A stretch of 64,000 bases of DNA from Burkholderiales bacterium. GTDB lineage: Bacteria; Pseudomonadota; Gammaproteobacteria; Burkholderiales; Thiobacteraceae. The notes below the pieces were generated by a model, which saw only the letters and a list, made by a program, of their open reading frames with translations, was not told the origin of the DNA and did not search any database. A program made the position numbers and the translations under genes. Position 1 is the stretch's first letter, and each line of letters starts with the position of its first letter. Positions 10,288-64,000 of the stretch are shown one piece after another. The stretch covers positions 1 through 64,000 of the forward strand of contig JAIMAL010000001.1 of NCBI GenBank assembly GCA_023511995.1, read 5' to 3'.

Positions 10288-10734
10288 CTATCGCGTCGTG
10301 CGCACTTCGTCGAAGATTTCCCCCAGGTCCTTTTCCCAGCGCTCGAAGATGGGTGCCAGCTCCGGCTGGGGGAAGAATTCCTTGAGCACGGTGGGGCGGG
10401 CGGTGGTGAGCAGGGTCTGGCCCTCCTCGGCAAAGATGGCCACGTTGAGGGGCAGGTAGGGGATGAGCTCGGGGTGTTCCGCGGCGAGTTTTTCCACCTC
10501 GCCGGGGCGCCCGAAAAAGACCACGCGGTAGCGGTCGGTCTTGTAGCCCTTCGCTTCCAGCCCCACGTCCACCCGTTGCACCTTGGCCACTTTGTAGCCG
10601 CGGGCGGCGATGGCCGCCTGCAGGGTGGACATGGCCTCTTCGAAATTCTGTGCCGAGCGGACGAGCAAAAGCTGGTCGGCCCATGCAGCGCAGGCGAAAA
10701 AAAGCAGGATGAGGCAGGCACCCAGGCGTTTCAT
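10288..10734 (-). CDS. Exported DUF302-family protein
   Basis: The 148-residue protein has a clear signal peptide ([19 protein letters not shown], cleavage about residue 19) and then a single DUF302 domain (GYKVAKVQRVDVGLEAKGY, RVVFFGRP, LPLNVAIFAEEGQT). DUF302 domains are of unknown biochemical role. Its ATG overlaps the stop of the cytochrome-DUF302 fusion gene, so the two are translationally coupled and presumably act together in the periplasm. A different overlapping frame here was rejected because it lacks a signal peptide and family resemblance. Confidence 0.88.
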   Translation of the reverse strand: MKRLGACLILLFFACAAWADQLLLVRSAQNFEEAMSTLQAAIAARGYKVAKVQRVDVGLEAKGYKTDRYRVVFFGRPGEVEKLAAEHPELIPYLPLNVAIFAEEGQTLLTTARPTVLKEFFPQPELAPIFERWEKDLGEIFDEVRTTR

Positions 10735-11774
10735 AACGCGGCCTCCTCCATGATGGTGCGGTAGAGTCGGGACATCTGATCACACATTTCGTTGAGCTCG
10801 CTGTTGTTGAAGATTTTCGATAGACGCTTGGGATTGATGCTCATCATGCGCACCTTGCCATTCTGCTCCACCACCGTGATGCGGCAGGGGAGGAAAAGGC
10901 CGACCCGGGGATCGATCGCCAGGGCCTGGTTCAGCATGCCGAAGTTGCAGAAATAGACGATGTGCTGCCGCGGATTCTCCTGACCTTCGGCGGCGATGCC
11001 CGAATCCAGAGTTTGTTCCCGGATGAAGACGAAGTTGTTGGAGGTGGCGGCACGCTTGACGTTTTCCACCGTGGTGGCGAGATCGTAGGGGGAATCCACC
11101 ACCAGGATGGGCTGGTCGGTCTCCAGCACCGGGGTGGCCGGCGGATGTTTTTCCAGGCTGCGCACGAAGGCGACGATGTCATTGAGATCGCGGTCGGAAA
11201 GCCCCCGCGATTTGAAGGCCACCATGGGGGTGCCTTCGCGGCCCCTGACCAGGGTGGCGCGGATCATGGCGTCCGAGGCAGCGGCGAGATAGCCCGGGTT
11301 GTTGAGGGCGGGCGGCATGATGGGTAGATCCCGGGGCCGGGAGAAGGTGACGCCGGTGCCGTGGCTGCCCTCGCCGCGGGGCCCATGGCAGCCGGCACAG
11401 TAACGGGCGAACAACTGTTCCCCCCGCGTCGCGTTGCCGCGGATGGGTTTGCGGTCGAAGACGGGTTTTTTGCCCCGGTGGAAACGACGTAGATGGGCCA
11501 CGATGGCGTCCACCTCGGCATCGGAAAGCTGGGTGAAGGCCGGCATGACCCGCCCCGGCCGGCCCAGCCGGATGGTGCGGCGCAGATATTCGTCGTCCAC
11601 CGTGGCCTGGAAGGAAGGCAGGGCCAGGGGGACACCGATGCCGCCCCGGCCATCCTCGCCATGGCAGGCGGCGCAATGACGGGAATAGAGCTCGGCGCCA
11701 TCCGCCGCCCAGAGGGGAGGCGCGGAAAAGACGGCAAGGAAGAGCAAAATGAACGAGCCAGGCAGGCGCGGCAT
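10731..11774 (-). CDS. Di-heme cytochrome c fused to a DUF302 domain
   Basis: The 347-residue exported protein starts with a signal peptide (cleavage after about LWA, residue 23). Two class-I cytochrome c domains follow, with heme sites CAACH (34-38) and CAGCH (126-130); Met77 and Met184 are likely distal ligands. A C-terminal DUF302 domain spans about 215-335 ([36 protein letters not shown]). It is probably a periplasmic electron-transfer protein; donor and acceptor are unknown. A strong ribosome site, AAAGGAGG, precedes the ATG, and a second DUF302 protein follows with a 4-nt overlap. The gene is divergent from pyrC. Confidence 0.88.
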
Positions 11775-11944
11775 GGAAGCCTCCTTTCAGGATAAGAATA
11801 TCCGCAAAAACGAATATAGCCGCAATGGCCGGTCCTGCCAAGGGCAAAAACGGAAGCCGGGATAAAACGCGAAGAACAGCGAAGCCTGCCGCAGGGGGCA
11901 GGCGCATGGGCTATACTGCCGGCCTCATTTCCCTTTTTCTTCCC
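11775..11944. promoter_or_regulatory. Divergent control region, cytochrome-DUF302 and pyrC
   Basis: This 170-bp region between two divergent genes contains the dyad GGATA-AGAA-TATCC (11790-11803) and two copies of GAATAT(C/A)(C/G)CGC 16 bp apart (about 11796 and 11812), near the cytochrome start. A TATACT at 11912-11917 could be the pyrC -10 box, but no good -35 box accompanies it. Both assignments are tentative. Confidence 0.4.
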
Positions 11945-59092: not shown

Positions 59093-59124
59093 CAATCGAT
59101 GGAAAAATCAAGATCCATCGATTG
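59093..59124. repeat. Perfect inverted repeat upstream of oxyR
   Basis: CAATCGATGG (59093-59102) and CCATCGATTG (59115-59124) flank a 12-nt AT-rich spacer. It overlaps the end of nasA and lies 5 nt before the oxyR ATG. It contains two ATCGAT palindromes 22 bp apart, a spacing compatible with a LysR-type operator, and can also form an RNA hairpin. Confidence 0.8.
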
Positions 59125-61756
59125 TATCGCACCCCTGCGGATGACAGAAGGCAGGGCTTGGGGCCGAAGGCGTTTCCGTGATGAGCCGCTTGAGTTCCGG
59201 CAGGCAGGCGCCACACCCCGTGCCGGCGTTGAGCCTCGCTTGAAGCTCGATCACCGTGGTGGCCCCGTTGCGGATCGCTTCCCGGATGCGTCCCTCGGCC
59301 ACGCCGTGGCAGGCACAGATGAGCCGCCCCTGCGGCGCCCCTTCCGGCGGCTCACCCCGTAACAGGGCCAGACGGTCGGCGGTGTCGAGCTTCTCCCGGT
59401 CGAGGAGGCTGGCAAGCCAGGTGGGATCGGGCAGGCGGCCCTGTCCGGGTTCGATGAAGAGCAGGGCTTCCAGCCGGCCTTCCACCAGCCGGGCGAGGCG
59501 CAGCCGGCCCTGGGCGGGGTCTTCCAGACGCAGCCATTCCCCTCTCCCCGCCACAAGGGGCGGCAGGGCAGCGGTCCCCTTCGCCAACCCGGCGAGCTGC
59601 AGACGGTAGCCGCCGGGAACGGGCACGCGGTGCCACAGACAGCCGGCGGGAGGGGTGACGGGGTGGCGCGTCAGCAGCAGCGCCTGCCAGGCGGGGGTAA
59701 TCGGGTCGAGCTCCACCCGGGCTGCCTTGAAAGCGGGTTGACCGGAGGTGGGGTCGCAGCAGGCGGGAATGATGGCGCCGACGCGTCCGGCAGCGGCGAA
59801 GAGATCGTTCCAGTGCATGGGCACGAAGATCTCGCCCGGCCGCTGGCCGGCGCTGATCTGCACCCGGGCGGCGATACGGCCCAGGCGGTTGGCCACCCAC
59901 GCCCAAGCCCCCTCCTTCAGCCCTGCGCGTGCCGCATCGCGTGGATGCACGCTGACGACGGGTTCGGGGGTATGGGCAAAAAGCCGGGCCACGCGGCCGG
60001 TGCGAGTCATGGTGTGCCACTGGTCGCGCACGCGACCGGTGTTGAGGCAGAGTCCCGCGGCCTCCCCGGCTGGCGCTGGCGCCACCGGCTTCATCCGCGC
60101 CCGGCCATCGTCGGTGGCGAAACGGCCGTCACCGAACAGGCGCGCCGCACCAGCGGGCCACTGGTGGGGGCCGGCGAGATCATAGGCTTCCCGCGAGGCG
60201 GCGATCGAGGGGTCAAGGCGCAGCCGGGGACCGGCAGGGGAAAGCGCGGTGAGCGCCGCGTGTTCGCGGAAAATGGTGTGGGGGCCGGGGTAGGCGAAGG
60301 CTTGGCCAAAACCCATGCGGGCGGCCACCTGGCTGATGATCCACCAATCGGGGCGCGCCTGGCCGGGCAGCGGCAGGAAAGCGCGCTGGCGGGAGATGCG
60401 CCGTTCGGAGTTGGTGACGGTGCCGTCCTTTTCTCCCCAGGCCGCGGCAGGCAGCCTGACGTGGGCCAGGCGCAGGGTGTCATTGTCGGCCACCACGTCC
60501 GATACCACCACAAACTCACAACGGGCAAGCGCCGAGCGCACCCGTTCCGCTTCGGGCAGGCTCACCGCCGGATTGGTGGCCATGATCCACAGCGCTTTGA
60601 TTTTCCCCGCATGCACGGCCTCGAACAAATCCACGGCCTTGAGCCCGGGCCTGGCGGCGATGCGGGGCGCCTGCCAGAAGGCCTGCACCTGCTGTCGGTT
60701 GGCGGCGGAAAAATCCCGGTGTGCGGCAAGCTGGGTGGCCAGTCCCCCCACCTCGCGGCCGCCCATGGCATTGGGCTGCCCGGTAATGGAGAAAGGACAG
60801 GCGCCCGGTTTGCCAATGCGTCCGGTGGCAAGGTGCACGTTCAGGATGGCAAGGCAATTGTCCACGCCGGTCACCTGCTGGTTGATGCCCTGGGAGAAAA
60901 CGGTGACGGTTCGCGGCGTGGTGGCGAAGAGACGGAAGAAGGCGGCGACATCCGCCTCCCGCAGATCACAGCGGCGTGCCACTTCGGGGATGGACAGGCC
61001 GCTCACGGCATCGAGGGTGGCGCCGAAACCACGCACGTGGTTTTCGAGGAAAGTCCAGTCGAGACGCCCCTCCCGCTTGAGATACTCCAGGAGGCCGTTG
61101 AACAGCCAGATATCGCTCCCCGGCGAAAGCTGCAGATGCAAATCGGCGAGCTCACAGGTGGCGGTGCGCCGGGGATCGATCACCACCACGCGTTTGCCCG
61201 GGTTCTTTTCCTTGGCTTCCGCCATGCGTCGGTAGAGCACGGGATGGGTGAAAGCCGCATTCCAGCCCACCAGCAGCAGGAGGTCGGCCTGTTCCAGATC
61301 CTCGTAGCATCCCGGCACCAGGTCCTCGCCGAAGGCGAACTGCTGCGCCGCAGCGGGGGAGGACATGCAAAGCCTCGAATTGGTGTCGATGTTGGCGCTG
61401 CCGATGAAGCCTTTCATCAGCTTGTTGGCCACGTAGTAATCCTCGGTGAGGAGCTGCCCGGAAACGTAGAAGGCGATGGCTTCCGGTCCGTGGCGATCCA
61501 CCACCTCGGCAAACTGCCGGGCCACCGTCGAAAGCGCCTTATCCCAGTCCACGCGCTCGCCGCGGATTTCCGGGTAAAGGAGACGGCCCTCCGGGCCGAG
61601 GGTTTCGGCAAGGGAGGCGCCCTTGGCGCACAGGCGACCGCGGTTGGCCGGATGGTCGGGGTCGCCCGTGATCTCAACCCTTTCGCCCACGCGGCGCACG
61701 AGGAGGCCGCAGCCCACCCCGCAATAGGGGCAGGTGGTGGCGATTCCGTCTTTCAT
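59108..61756 (-). CDS. nasA: Assimilatory nitrate reductase catalytic subunit with BFD-like [2Fe-2S] domain
   Basis: NasA reduces nitrate to nitrite in the cytoplasm. The 882-residue molybdopterin protein starts with a [4Fe-4S] motif (CPYCGVGCG with a later Cys in RLCAKG), has the molybdopterin oxidoreductase body (NIDTNSRLCMSS, QGINQQVTG) and the dinucleotide-binding domain. A C-terminal BFD-like [2Fe-2S] domain follows (CACHGVAEG and CGACLPEL), as in Klebsiella NasA. No twin-arginine signal is present, consistent with assimilation. ATG 61756 overlaps the nirD stop. Confidence 0.94.
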   Translation of the reverse strand: MKDGIATTCPYCGVGCGLLVRRVGERVEITGDPDHPANRGRLCAKGASLAETLGPEGRLLYPEIRGERVDWDKALSTVARQFAEVVDRHGPEAIAFYVSGQLLTEDYYVANKLMKGFIGSANIDTNSRLCMSSPAAAQQFAFGEDLVPGCYEDLEQADLLLLVGWNAAFTHPVLYRRMAEAKEKNPGKRVVVIDPRRTATCELADLHLQLSPGSDIWLFNGLLEYLKREGRLDWTFLENHVRGFGATLDAVSGLSIPEVARRCDLREADVAAFFRLFATTPRTVTVFSQGINQQVTGVDNCLAILNVHLATGRIGKPGACPFSITGQPNAMGGREVGGLATQLAAHRDFSAANRQQVQAFWQAPRIAARPGLKAVDLFEAVHAGKIKALWIMATNPAVSLPEAERVRSALARCEFVVVSDVVADNDTLRLAHVRLPAAAWGEKDGTVTNSERRISRQRAFLPLPGQARPDWWIISQVAARMGFGQAFAYPGPHTIFREHAALTALSPAGPRLRLDPSIAASREAYDLAGPHQWPAGAARLFGDGRFATDDGRARMKPVAPAPAGEAAGLCLNTGRVRDQWHTMTRTGRVARLFAHTPEPVVSVHPRDAARAGLKEGAWAWVANRLGRIAARVQISAGQRPGEIFVPMHWNDLFAAAGRVGAIIPACCDPTSGQPAFKAARVELDPITPAWQALLLTRHPVTPPAGCLWHRVPVPGGYRLQLAGLAKGTAALPPLVAGRGEWLRLEDPAQGRLRLARLVEGRLEALLFIEPGQGRLPDPTWLASLLDREKLDTADRLALLRGEPPEGAPQGRLICACHGVAEGRIREAIRNGATTVIELQARLNAGTGCGACLPELKRLITETPSAPSPAFCHPQGCDTIDGS

Positions 61757-62094
61757 GCTGCCTCGGGGGCCAAAGCCGACGCCGTGACACAGAGTTCCAC
61801 CATCCCGTCCCGGATGCGCACGGGGTAGCGCGCCACACAACCCTCATCCGGGGCGATGGCGCGGCCACTGATGAGATCGATGCGCCAATCGTGCAGAGGG
61901 CAGGTGACGCTGGTGCCATGCACGATGCCTTGGGAGAGGGGGCCTCCCCGATGGGGGCAGCGGTCGTCCAGGGCGAATACTTCATCCCCTGCGGTGCGGA
62001 AAATGGCGATGTTTCCTTCCGCACGCCTGACCACCCGCGCGCCCCGCGGCGGGATGTCGCTCAGACGGCCGATGACGATCCACTGTTCCTCCAT
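61753..62094 (-). CDS. nirD: Nitrite reductase (NADH) small subunit
   Basis: The 113-residue Rieske-type protein has the iron-sulfur motifs CPHRGG and CPLHDW and the NirD-like DIPPRGARVVRRAEG start region. It supports NirB in the six-electron reduction of nitrite to ammonium. It begins 3 nt after nirB and overlaps nasA by 4 nt. Confidence 0.94.
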   Translation of the reverse strand: MEEQWIVIGRLSDIPPRGARVVRRAEGNIAIFRTAGDEVFALDDRCPHRGGPLSQGIVHGTSVTCPLHDWRIDLISGRAIAPDEGCVARYPVRIRDGMVELCVTASALAPEAA

Positions 62095-62097
62095 GAT

Positions 62098-64000
62098 TCA
62101 CTCCATGTGGGCGAGAGGTTGAAATTCATGGGCCTCCCGGCCTTGCGCCCGTTCGGCCCAGGGGTCGCGCTGCGCATGCTGCTGGGAGGCCTGGAAGCGC
62201 TCGGCAAGCGCCCGGCGTGATGCCCCATCGTGCACCACCCGTTCCTGGATGTAGTTGAGGCCCACGCGTTCCACCCAGGGTGCGGTGCGTTCCAGGTAGC
62301 GGGCTTCCTCGCGGTAGAGCTGGATGAAAGCCGCGCAGTGTTCCAGCACCTCGGCCTCGGTGGCCACCTTGGTGAGGAGATCGGTGATGCGGACCTTGAT
62401 GCCGCCGTTGCCCCCCACGTGGAGTTCATAGCCGGATTCCACACACACCACGCCGAAGTCCTTGATGGTCGCTTCGGCGCAGTTGCGGGGACAGCCGGAC
62501 ACCGCCATCTTGAACTTGTGGGGCATCCACGAACCCCAGGTGAGTTTTTCCAGCTTAACCCCTAGCCCGGTGGAATCCTGGGTGCCGAAGCGGCACCACT
62601 GGCTGCCGACACAGGTTTTCACGGTGCGCAGCGCCTTGCCGTACGCATGACCGGAGACGAAGCCGGCAGCGGCGAGATCGCGCCAGACAGCAGGCAAATC
62701 CTCCTTGCGGATGCCGAAGAGGTCGATGCGTTGTCCGCCGGTGATTTTCATCTCCGGCACGCGGTACTTTTCCGCCACGTCGGCGATGGCGCGCAGTTCC
62801 TGTGGGGTAACCAGACCACCCCACAGGCGCGGCACCACCGAGAAAGTGCCATCCTTCTGGATATTGCCGTGGGCGCGCTCGTTGATGAAGCGTGACTGGG
62901 GATCGTCCCGATATTCCCCCGGCCACGCCGCGAGCAGGTAGTAGTTGAGGGCCGGCCGGCATTTGGCGCAGCCGTCCTCGGTCTTCCAACCCAGAGCGCG
63001 CATCACCGCCGGGATGGATTTCAGACCCTGCTCGACGATGGCGCGCCGCACCTCGTCGTGGCTCACCTCCGTGCAGGGGCAGAGGGGCTTGGCCGAGGGT
63101 TTGGCCGCGTACTCGCCACCCAGGGTGTGGGCGAGCAGGGCCTCCACCAAACCAGTGCACGAACCGCAGGAAGCGGAGGCCTTGGTGTGGGCGCGCACCT
63201 CTTCCAGGGTGTAGAGCTGTTTGTCGCGGATGGCGCGCACGATCTCGCCCTTGCACACCCCATTGCAGCCGCAGATTTCCGCGCCGTCGGGCAGCGCGGC
63301 GACCCGCGCCTTGGGATCGGTGCCGGCATCACCCACGTGGGGGCGGCCGAAGAGCAGGCTCTCTCTCAGCGCTCCGATGTCCGTGCCCTCGCGCAATAGG
63401 TCGAAATACCACGCGCCATCCACGGTGTCGCCATACAGGCAGGCGCCCACCAGCCGGTTGTCGCGCACCACCAGCTTTTTGTAAACGCCACGACCGGCAT
63501 CTTCGAAGAGCAGGGTCTCATCGCCGGCTTCCGGCAGAAAGCGGCCTGCGGAGAAAAGATCGATGCCCGTCACTTTCAGGCGGGTGGCGACAGCCGAGCC
63601 GCCATAGCGGGCGATGCCCCACTCCGCCAGGTGATTGGCGCACACCTTGGCCTGCTCGAAGAGGGGGGCCACCAGGCCATAGGTCACGCCGCGGTGGTTC
63701 ACACACTCCCCCACGGCGTAGATGCGCGGATCGGTGAGCGTCTGCATGGTGTCGTGCACGCGCACGCCCCGCTCCACCATGAGGCCGGCCGCCTGGGCAA
63801 GTTCGGTATCCGGGCGGATACCCACCGCCATCACCACCAGCGTGGCGGGCAACACCTCGCCGTTGGCCAGACGCACACCGCGCACTTCCCCATTCTCCGT
63901 TTCGATGGCCTCTGTCTGGCTGGCCAGGCGGAAGGTGATCCCACGTCCCGCAAGGTGCCGGGCGAGCAGCCCGGCCGCCGGTTCGTCCAGTTGTTTTTCC
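62098..64000 (-). CDS. nirB: Nitrite reductase (NADH) large subunit, N-terminus beyond window
   Basis: About 634 C-terminal residues of NirB lie here; the frame stays open to the window edge, so the FAD/NADH domain is only partly present (VVMAVGIRPDTELA, EKQLDEPAAGLL). Two BFD-like [2Fe-2S] segments follow (CGCNGVCKG with CGSC; CPCTEVSHDE with CAKC). The siroheme/[4Fe-4S] domain has CVGSQWCRFG and GCPRNCAEATIKD. It reduces nitrite to ammonium with NADH. A GTG at 63885 is internal and should not be taken as the start. Confidence 0.95.
   Translation of the reverse strand, partial: EKQLDEPAAGLLARHLAGRGITFRLASQTEAIETENGEVRGVRLANGEVLPATLVVMAVGIRPDTELAQAAGLMVERGVRVHDTMQTLTDPRIYAVGECVNHRGVTYGLVAPLFEQAKVCANHLAEWGIARYGGSAVATRLKVTGIDLFSAGRFLPEAGDETLLFEDAGRGVYKKLVVRDNRLVGACLYGDTVDGAWYFDLLREGTDIGALRESLLFGRPHVGDAGTDPKARVAALPDGAEICGCNGVCKGEIVRAIRDKQLYTLEEVRAHTKASASCGSCTGLVEALLAHTLGGEYAAKPSAKPLCPCTEVSHDEVRRAIVEQGLKSIPAVMRALGWKTEDGCAKCRPALNYYLLAAWPGEYRDDPQSRFINERAHGNIQKDGTFSVVPRLWGGLVTPQELRAIADVAEKYRVPEMKITGGQRIDLFGIRKEDLPAVWRDLAAAGFVSGHAYGKALRTVKTCVGSQWCRFGTQDSTGLGVKLEKLTWGSWMPHKFKMAVSGCPRNCAEATIKDFGVVCVESGYELHVGGNGGIKVRITDLLTKVATEAEVLEHCAAFIQLYREEARYLERTAPWVERVGLNYIQERVVHDGASRRALAERFQASQQHAQRDPWAERAQGREAHEFQPLAHME

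Follow-up and report, generated by a model that had tools for sequence, protein, structure and literature searches.

A diheme cytochrome c-DUF302 fusion paired with a cysteine-poor DUF302 protein, found mainly in bacteria whose Sox system lacks SoxC

Two overlapping genes, one encoding a diheme cytochrome c fused to a DUF302 domain and the other a second DUF302 protein, form an almost obligate module that is found mainly in bacteria possessing a Sox system without SoxC, usually together with dsrA. They were identified in a window of 64,000 nucleotides, i.e. the whole stretch of DNA analysed, from a Burkholderiales bacterium of the Thiobacteraceae (assembly GCA_023511995.1, contig JAIMAL010000001.1). 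As the two genes nearly always occur together and mainly in sulfur oxidisers, they are good candidates for a component of sulfur oxidation that has so far escaped notice, and a role of the pair in this process appears probable. We further propose, with a confidence slightly short of even, that they constitute a periplasmic sulfur-oxidation module in which the cysteine pair of a DUF302 domain acts on a sulfur group while the two hemes draw off the electrons.

Both genes lie on the minus strand, which the sequence-only reading of this DNA had left unspecified; their features are listed in Table 1. The larger gene (gene 1) had been described in that reading as two c-type heme domains joined to a C-terminal DUF302, and profile and structure comparisons agreed on each part. 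Besides the CAACH and CAGCH motifs, Pfam scores above the gathering thresholds were obtained with Cytochrome_CBB3 (E 4.9e-27) and Cytochrom_C (E 3.1e-23), each over two stretches, and with DUF302 (PF03625) over residues 263-315 (E 3.2e-12, 46.6 bits for a gathering cut-off of 23). In an AF2 model of gene 1 built from 56 sequences (mean pLDDT 86.9), the first cytochrome c domain matched 5mxy (Z 12.1, rmsd 1.6, 76 residues aligned) and the DUF302 domain matched 1q9u (Z 18.1, rmsd 2.2, 127 residues aligned). The signal peptide is poorly conserved, as is the linker.

Table 1. Coordinates of the two genes, their domains and individual sites within the window
Feature	Position	Strand	Basis and remarks
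Gene 1: signal peptide, two cytochrome c domains and DUF302	10731-11774	-	ORF of 347 aa; Pfam; homologues
Gene 1, putative signal peptide (residues 1-23)	11706-11774	-	Read by eye
Gene 1, cytochrome c domain 1 (residues 24-100)	11475-11705	-	Pfam stretch 23-95 and structure match
Gene 1, first heme motif CAACH (residues 34-38)	11661-11675	-	Met77 at 11544-11546
Gene 1, cytochrome c domain 2 (residues 112-212)	11139-11441	-	Pfam stretch 116-207 and structure
Gene 1, second heme motif CAGCH (residues 126-130)	11385-11399	-	Met184 at 11223-11225
Gene 1, DUF302 domain (residues 223-347)	10734-11108	-	Pfam and 1q9u match
Cys276, first cysteine of the DUF302 pair	10947-10949	-	In 62/65 sampled fusions; also in 1J3M and 1Q9U
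Cys297, second cysteine of the pair (LPC motif)	10884-10886	-	In 60/65 (one of the remaining five is cut off at a contig end); shared with 1J3M and 1Q9U
Cys331, last helix	10782-10784	-	In 56/56 closer relatives, 54/65 overall
Promoter-like site 5' of gene 1	11813-11841	-	Consensus match only, 10/12 positions; the region has 1 such site vs 0.2 expected
ATGA shared by the stop of gene 1 and the start of gene 2	10731-10734	-	Plus strand reads tcat
Gene 2: signal peptide and DUF302 without cysteine pair	10288-10734	-	ORF of 148 aa; Pfam; 1q9u match

The second gene had likewise been read correctly as a DUF302 gene with a signal peptide and an ATGA overlap. Its Pfam match to DUF302 (E 1.5e-7) reached 31.7 bits for a cut-off of 23, and its hydrophobic N-terminus looks like a signal peptide. 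The AF2 model, built from 39 sequences (mean pLDDT 93.0), superimposed on 1q9u with Z 18.1 (rmsd 2.2, 127 residues aligned), the first non-DUF302-like fold appearing only at Z 8.6. The minus-strand ATGA holds both the stop codon of gene 1 (TGA) and the start codon of gene 2 (ATG). Three solved DUF302 structures, 1Q9U (APC35924), 1J3M (TT1751) and 7TJ1 (Brucella Bab1_1389), share their fold with gene 1 (Z 18.1, 14.6 and 16.3, respectively) and with gene 2 (Z 18.1, 16.5 and 16.4). These solved chains are single domains of about 130 residues, whereas the exported DUF302 studied here is joined to two hemes and has a cysteine-poor DUF302 as its partner. Additionally, 7TJ1 has the DUF302 fold and is titled fluoride transporter CrcB; this title, or an annotated link between CrcB and DUF302, may mislead database names for DUF302.

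Full-length homologues of the fusion (62-85 % identity) were present in 10 of the 40 genomes sampled as relatives, i.e. 11 of 41 with the genome studied here, and a scan based on one genome per species confirmed 201 fusion relatives. Together with the matches of the AF2 models to DUF302, these homologues indicate that the architecture did not arise by chance. Eighty loci were retained from the scan for neighbourhood reading, and the partner was found directly 3' of the fusion on the same strand in all 80. The class sample (370 genomes) contained 65 carriers of the fusion, spanning 32 families; the partner was adjacent in 64 of them and the remaining locus ends at a contig edge. The coupling that had been drawn from a single locus is thus conserved. 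An identical -4 overlap, with starts picked by script, was found in 53 of the 80 loci. The mature part of the partner is devoid of cysteine in 79 of these loci, and 8 of 16 partners from a divergent set have a cysteine in their last 120 residues. As judged from the protein sequences, one cysteine-pair and one cysteine-less DUF302 are paired here, a feature that the sequence-only reading had missed.

Within 6 kb of the pair, the recurrent neighbours are pyrC, rsmI, an esterase gene, cyaA-like and prfB-like genes and similar housekeeping genes. In the 20 neighbour clusters that recur most often, named by eye, we recognised neither sox or dsr genes nor metal-resistance genes. Since these neighbours are housekeeping genes, the pair looks like a free-standing two-gene unit and its genomic context is uninformative, leaving co-occurrence as the only usable signal. 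In the genome studied here, the pair (10.3-11.8 kb of contig C1) stands outside the sox cluster, soxA and soxB being located at 178.6-181.0 kb of the same contig. Elsewhere in the window, large minus-strand ORFs at 59108-63885 read by eye as nitrate and nitrite reductases.

Named carriers include Thiobacillus (among them T. thioparus, L038), Sulfuriferula, Sulfuricella, Sulfurisoma, Thioalkalivibrio, Thiogranum, Thiohalobacter and Thiohalomonas, and many further carriers are MAGs named at class or order level only. One MAG record titled Rhizobium sp. (L039) has a pair with an identical layout to the Thiobacillus loci L038 and L046 and almost their score, and its title may be wrong. The genome studied here has dsrA, soxB and soxA, and gave no match for soxC. 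In the relatives sample, dsrA was found in 11 of 11 carriers (split and below the cut-off in G023) vs 2 of 30 non-carriers. Among 50 carriers, examined for 50 of the 80 loci, 46 had a strong dsrA match, 44 of them above the curated cut-off. In the class sample, where dsrA occurs in 125 genomes and soxB in 162, the fusion was present in 52 of the 114 genomes having both genes, 8 of the 48 having soxB only, 1 of the 11 having dsrA only and 4 of the 197 having neither, proportions that ignore the kinship of the genomes. Among the 48 genomes with soxB and without dsrA, soxC was found in none of the 8 carriers vs 24 of the 40 others (Fisher p 0.004, likewise ignoring kinship). Seven of the other 57 carriers had a soxC match, six of them over the cut-off, i.e. 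7 of 65 carriers overall. The sulfur link that the sequence-only reading had offered as a guess is therefore borne out by the distribution of the fusion with soxB and dsrA and by the scarcity of soxC in its carriers; binding of a sulfur compound by DUF302 and electron exchange with the hemes, suggested in the same reading, are candidate functions.

Enrichment of the fusion with dsrA (53 of 65 carriers) is a co-occurrence that is not strict. A strict Dsr component was considered and rejected, dsrA being without match in 12 carriers and the fusion missing from 72 of the 125 dsrA genomes. We also considered sHdr as a substitute in the dsrA-lacking carriers. TIGR03288 matched in 6 of these 12 vs 13 of 16 fusion-free, soxC-free controls, none of the matches being above the curated cut-off; sHdr does not separate carriers from controls.

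The pair might owe this distribution to shared ancestry only, i.e. to inheritance from the ancestors of sulfur-oxidising Beta- and Gammaproteobacteria without any sulfur function. In keeping with this, the counts are taken over related genomes and the pair is dispensable, being absent from 62 of the 114 genomes with soxB and dsrA. However, its carriers are spread over 32 sampled families and mostly have soxB or dsrA, the neighbourhoods of the pair are varied, and 8 of the 12 carriers without dsrA have soxB while one more has soxA; we regard ancestry alone as highly improbable.

Conservation of the heme sites bears on the part that each domain may play. In domain 1, C34, C37, H38 and M77 are invariant, both in the 56 closer relatives and in the 65 class-sample fusions. 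In domain 2, C126, C129, H130 and M184 are invariant in the 56 closer relatives; H130 and M184 are present in all 65 class-sample fusions and C126 and C129 in 64, the last one showing an alignment gap. Both domains combine a CxxCH motif with a downstream Met and are, by sequence, class I cytochromes c; the heme part also resembles small class I cytochromes in structure. Such tandem class I domains are shared with CcoP and diheme cytochromes c (3mk7, 8smr) and with Kuenenia Kustc0458 (6h5l), but CcoP, an oxidase subunit, and Kustc0458, part of an HAO-like complex, have no DUF302. Gene 1 scored 56.2 bits with the CcoP model (TIGR00782), far under the curated cut-off of 179.95, which places it outside this family.

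TsdA (4wq7) and SoxCD (2xts) are also c-type cytochromes of sulfur oxidation. Foldseek gave only weak matches of gene 1 to them (TsdA, E 0.015, TMq 0.20; SoxCD, E 0.041), and neither was among the 50 structural-alignment matches listed for gene 1. The catalytic heme of TsdA has His/Cys ligation. Unlike TsdA and SoxCD, the fusion has a conserved Met for each heme, and its candidate active cysteines are in the DUF302 domain and not at a heme. The presence of this Met at the usual place in both heme domains of all 65 fusions argues against a TsdA-type His/Cys heme and is more in keeping with electron transfer than with catalysis at the hemes. If the hemes serve electron transfer, the DUF302 domain would be the place where the chemistry occurs.

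The same observation weighs on another explanation, in which the pair would be a specific polythionate enzyme, i.e. a cytochrome-linked thiosulfate dehydrogenase or a trithionate-handling protein unlike TsdA, in line with a speculation on the sox-cluster DUF302 of Acidithiobacillia: no catalytic heme of the TsdA kind is suggested in the fusion. According to the available text of PMC5037610, a DUF302 gene lies between soxA and soxB in Thermithiobacillus, Acidithiobacillus and Thiohalorhabdus, and trithionate oxidation was speculated for it. Like the present pair, this DUF302 is tied to a Sox system without SoxCD; judging from its description there, it differs in being a single 191-residue protein within the cluster, while the present pair is outside the cluster and carries hemes. 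The available part of PMC5248467 reports that T. thioparus has six DUF302 genes outside the sox operon, lacks tsdA and soxCD, and is expected to possess a different thiosulfate dehydrogenase that is still to be identified, an expectation which favours the polythionate enzyme as this species has the fusion. The same source, as far as available, ties the sox-cluster DUF302 to trithionate users, to which T. thioparus does not belong in spite of carrying the fusion, and on balance we find a dedicated polythionate enzyme quite unlikely. A DUF302 gene was also noted in Sulfitobacter sox clusters (PMC11034169, available text). The heme fusion and its paired gene are not described in the available parts of PMC5037610, PMC5248467, PMC11034169, PMC5061849 and PMC6515984. 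The sequence-only reading had envisaged that the architecture might be widespread with a known function; it is indeed widespread in sulfur oxidisers, and the literature searched holds neither a description of a cytochrome c-cytochrome c-DUF302 architecture nor a function for DUF302.

The fused DUF302 domain has the cysteine pair of 1Q9U and 1J3M, Cys276 and Cys297 corresponding to the cysteines of their CN...LPC motif. Both cysteines are retained in 60 of the 64 readable fusions, the sequence of the 65th carrier being truncated. In three genomes of one genus (G278, G365 and G433), Gly and Asn replace Cys276 and Cys297; the hemes and the partner are still present despite this loss, and soxA, soxB and dsrA are all without match. 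Cys331 is gone as well in these three genomes (loci L179, L180 and L178, respectively). We had considered Cys331 as part of the site and dropped it, as it is kept throughout the closer relatives but not in the wider sample (Table 1). In G369, Cys297 is replaced by Phe, soxB and dsrA are without match and soxA is present. A reading in which cysteine loss marks each of the four carriers lacking soxB and dsrA matches (Fisher p 1.6e-6, ignoring kinship) was withdrawn because G369 has soxA. Seen in the alignments, cysteine loss thus parallels the loss of sulfur genes in one genus, with G369 as counter-example, and for these two reasons the parallel is merely suggestive.

The statement of the sequence-only reading that DUF302 usually stands alone is broadly right, and stand-alone DUF302 loci of the relatives come in two forms that it had not distinguished, with the cysteine pair (15 of 23) or without it (8 of 23). 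As the pair is common in heme-free stand-alone DUF302s, including 1J3M and 1Q9U, it cannot be taken as a mark of heme chemistry. The genome studied here has three more DUF302 genes, and the cysteine pair is present in each of them (L161:5815-6222 on contig C8, L162:5430-6089 on C22 and L163:5280-5807 on C16). The C8 copy has no signal peptide and the C22 and C16 copies are apparently exported; by eye, the C16 copy closely precedes a frame resembling an arsC-type phosphatase, with molybdopterin genes nearby.

These variants also bear on the view that the protein is an electron carrier only, the diheme part being a soluble shuttle to a terminal oxidase and the DUF302 domain and partner docking or dimerising without chemistry; the link to Sox and Dsr would then mirror the respiratory chain of these bacteria. 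The two ordinary heme domains do resemble CcoP and small diheme cytochromes, and the three genomes which keep hemes and partner without the cysteines suggest that the protein can act without them. A docking surface seemingly needs less than the observed retention of the cysteines, however, and the distribution is narrow, with the fusion in only 2 of 249 genomes of the phylum-wide sample (own genome included). We hold a pure carrier role to be rather unlikely, but it is a serious rival to the module proposed here.

Alternatively, the cysteine pair could bind copper or another thiophilic metal, with the hemes or the partner taking part in metal redox chemistry or detoxification in sulfidic habitats. 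DUF302 genes accompany arsenic-related and sqr operons in the available text of PMC5061849, and in G023 an RND efflux set and a gene for a monoheme cytochrome precede a stand-alone DUF302. At this locus (L166:4983-5900, contig C70), which is a second neighbourhood of a cytochrome with DUF302, the monoheme cytochrome c gene is followed directly by the DUF302, which has the cysteine pair; a shared frame length had suggested a monoheme cytochrome c-DUF302 fusion, which proved to be two adjacent genes. Metal handling would predict neither the absence of soxC nor the presence of dsrA, and the recurrent neighbour clusters read by eye, as given above, are free of recognisable metal-resistance genes, which makes it very unlikely.

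In the sulfur-oxidation module that we propose, Cys276 and Cys297 would accept or couple a sulfane or thiol group delivered by a preceding step, the candidate donors being SoxYZ-bound sulfane, thiosulfate, polysulfide and a low-molecular-weight persulfide. The two released electrons would pass to the two hemes, each presumed to have a normal His/Met pair and a role in electron transfer, then to a soluble cytochrome c and to a terminal oxidase or a denitrification chain. Gene 2 may provide the non-redox half of the fused DUF302 or a docking surface for a sulfur carrier. The parts of this scheme are not equally secure: direct contact between the two DUF302 proteins seems to us evenly balanced, and cysteine-based redox chemistry by DUF302, although possible, is somewhat doubtful. 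A bolder version would make the pair an unrecognised sulfur dehydrogenase of SoxCD-lacking bacteria, with a catalytic DUF302 whose cysteine pair oxidises sulfane or thiosulfate, its own hemes carrying off two electrons and gene 2 acting as docking half; we consider this unlikely as it stands.

To our knowledge, periplasmic sulfane sulfur handling in Sox bacteria without SoxCD is poorly understood. Were the sulfur dehydrogenase reading true, it would give DUF302 its first function and make the pair a candidate for the step, so far missing in Thiobacillus-type bacteria, that oxidises thiosulfate or sulfane. A conserved, exported two-gene heme module in many bacteria with Sox and without SoxCD is a concrete and testable candidate in this respect, and DUF302 gains from it a strong metabolic context together with a natural set of cysteine variants.
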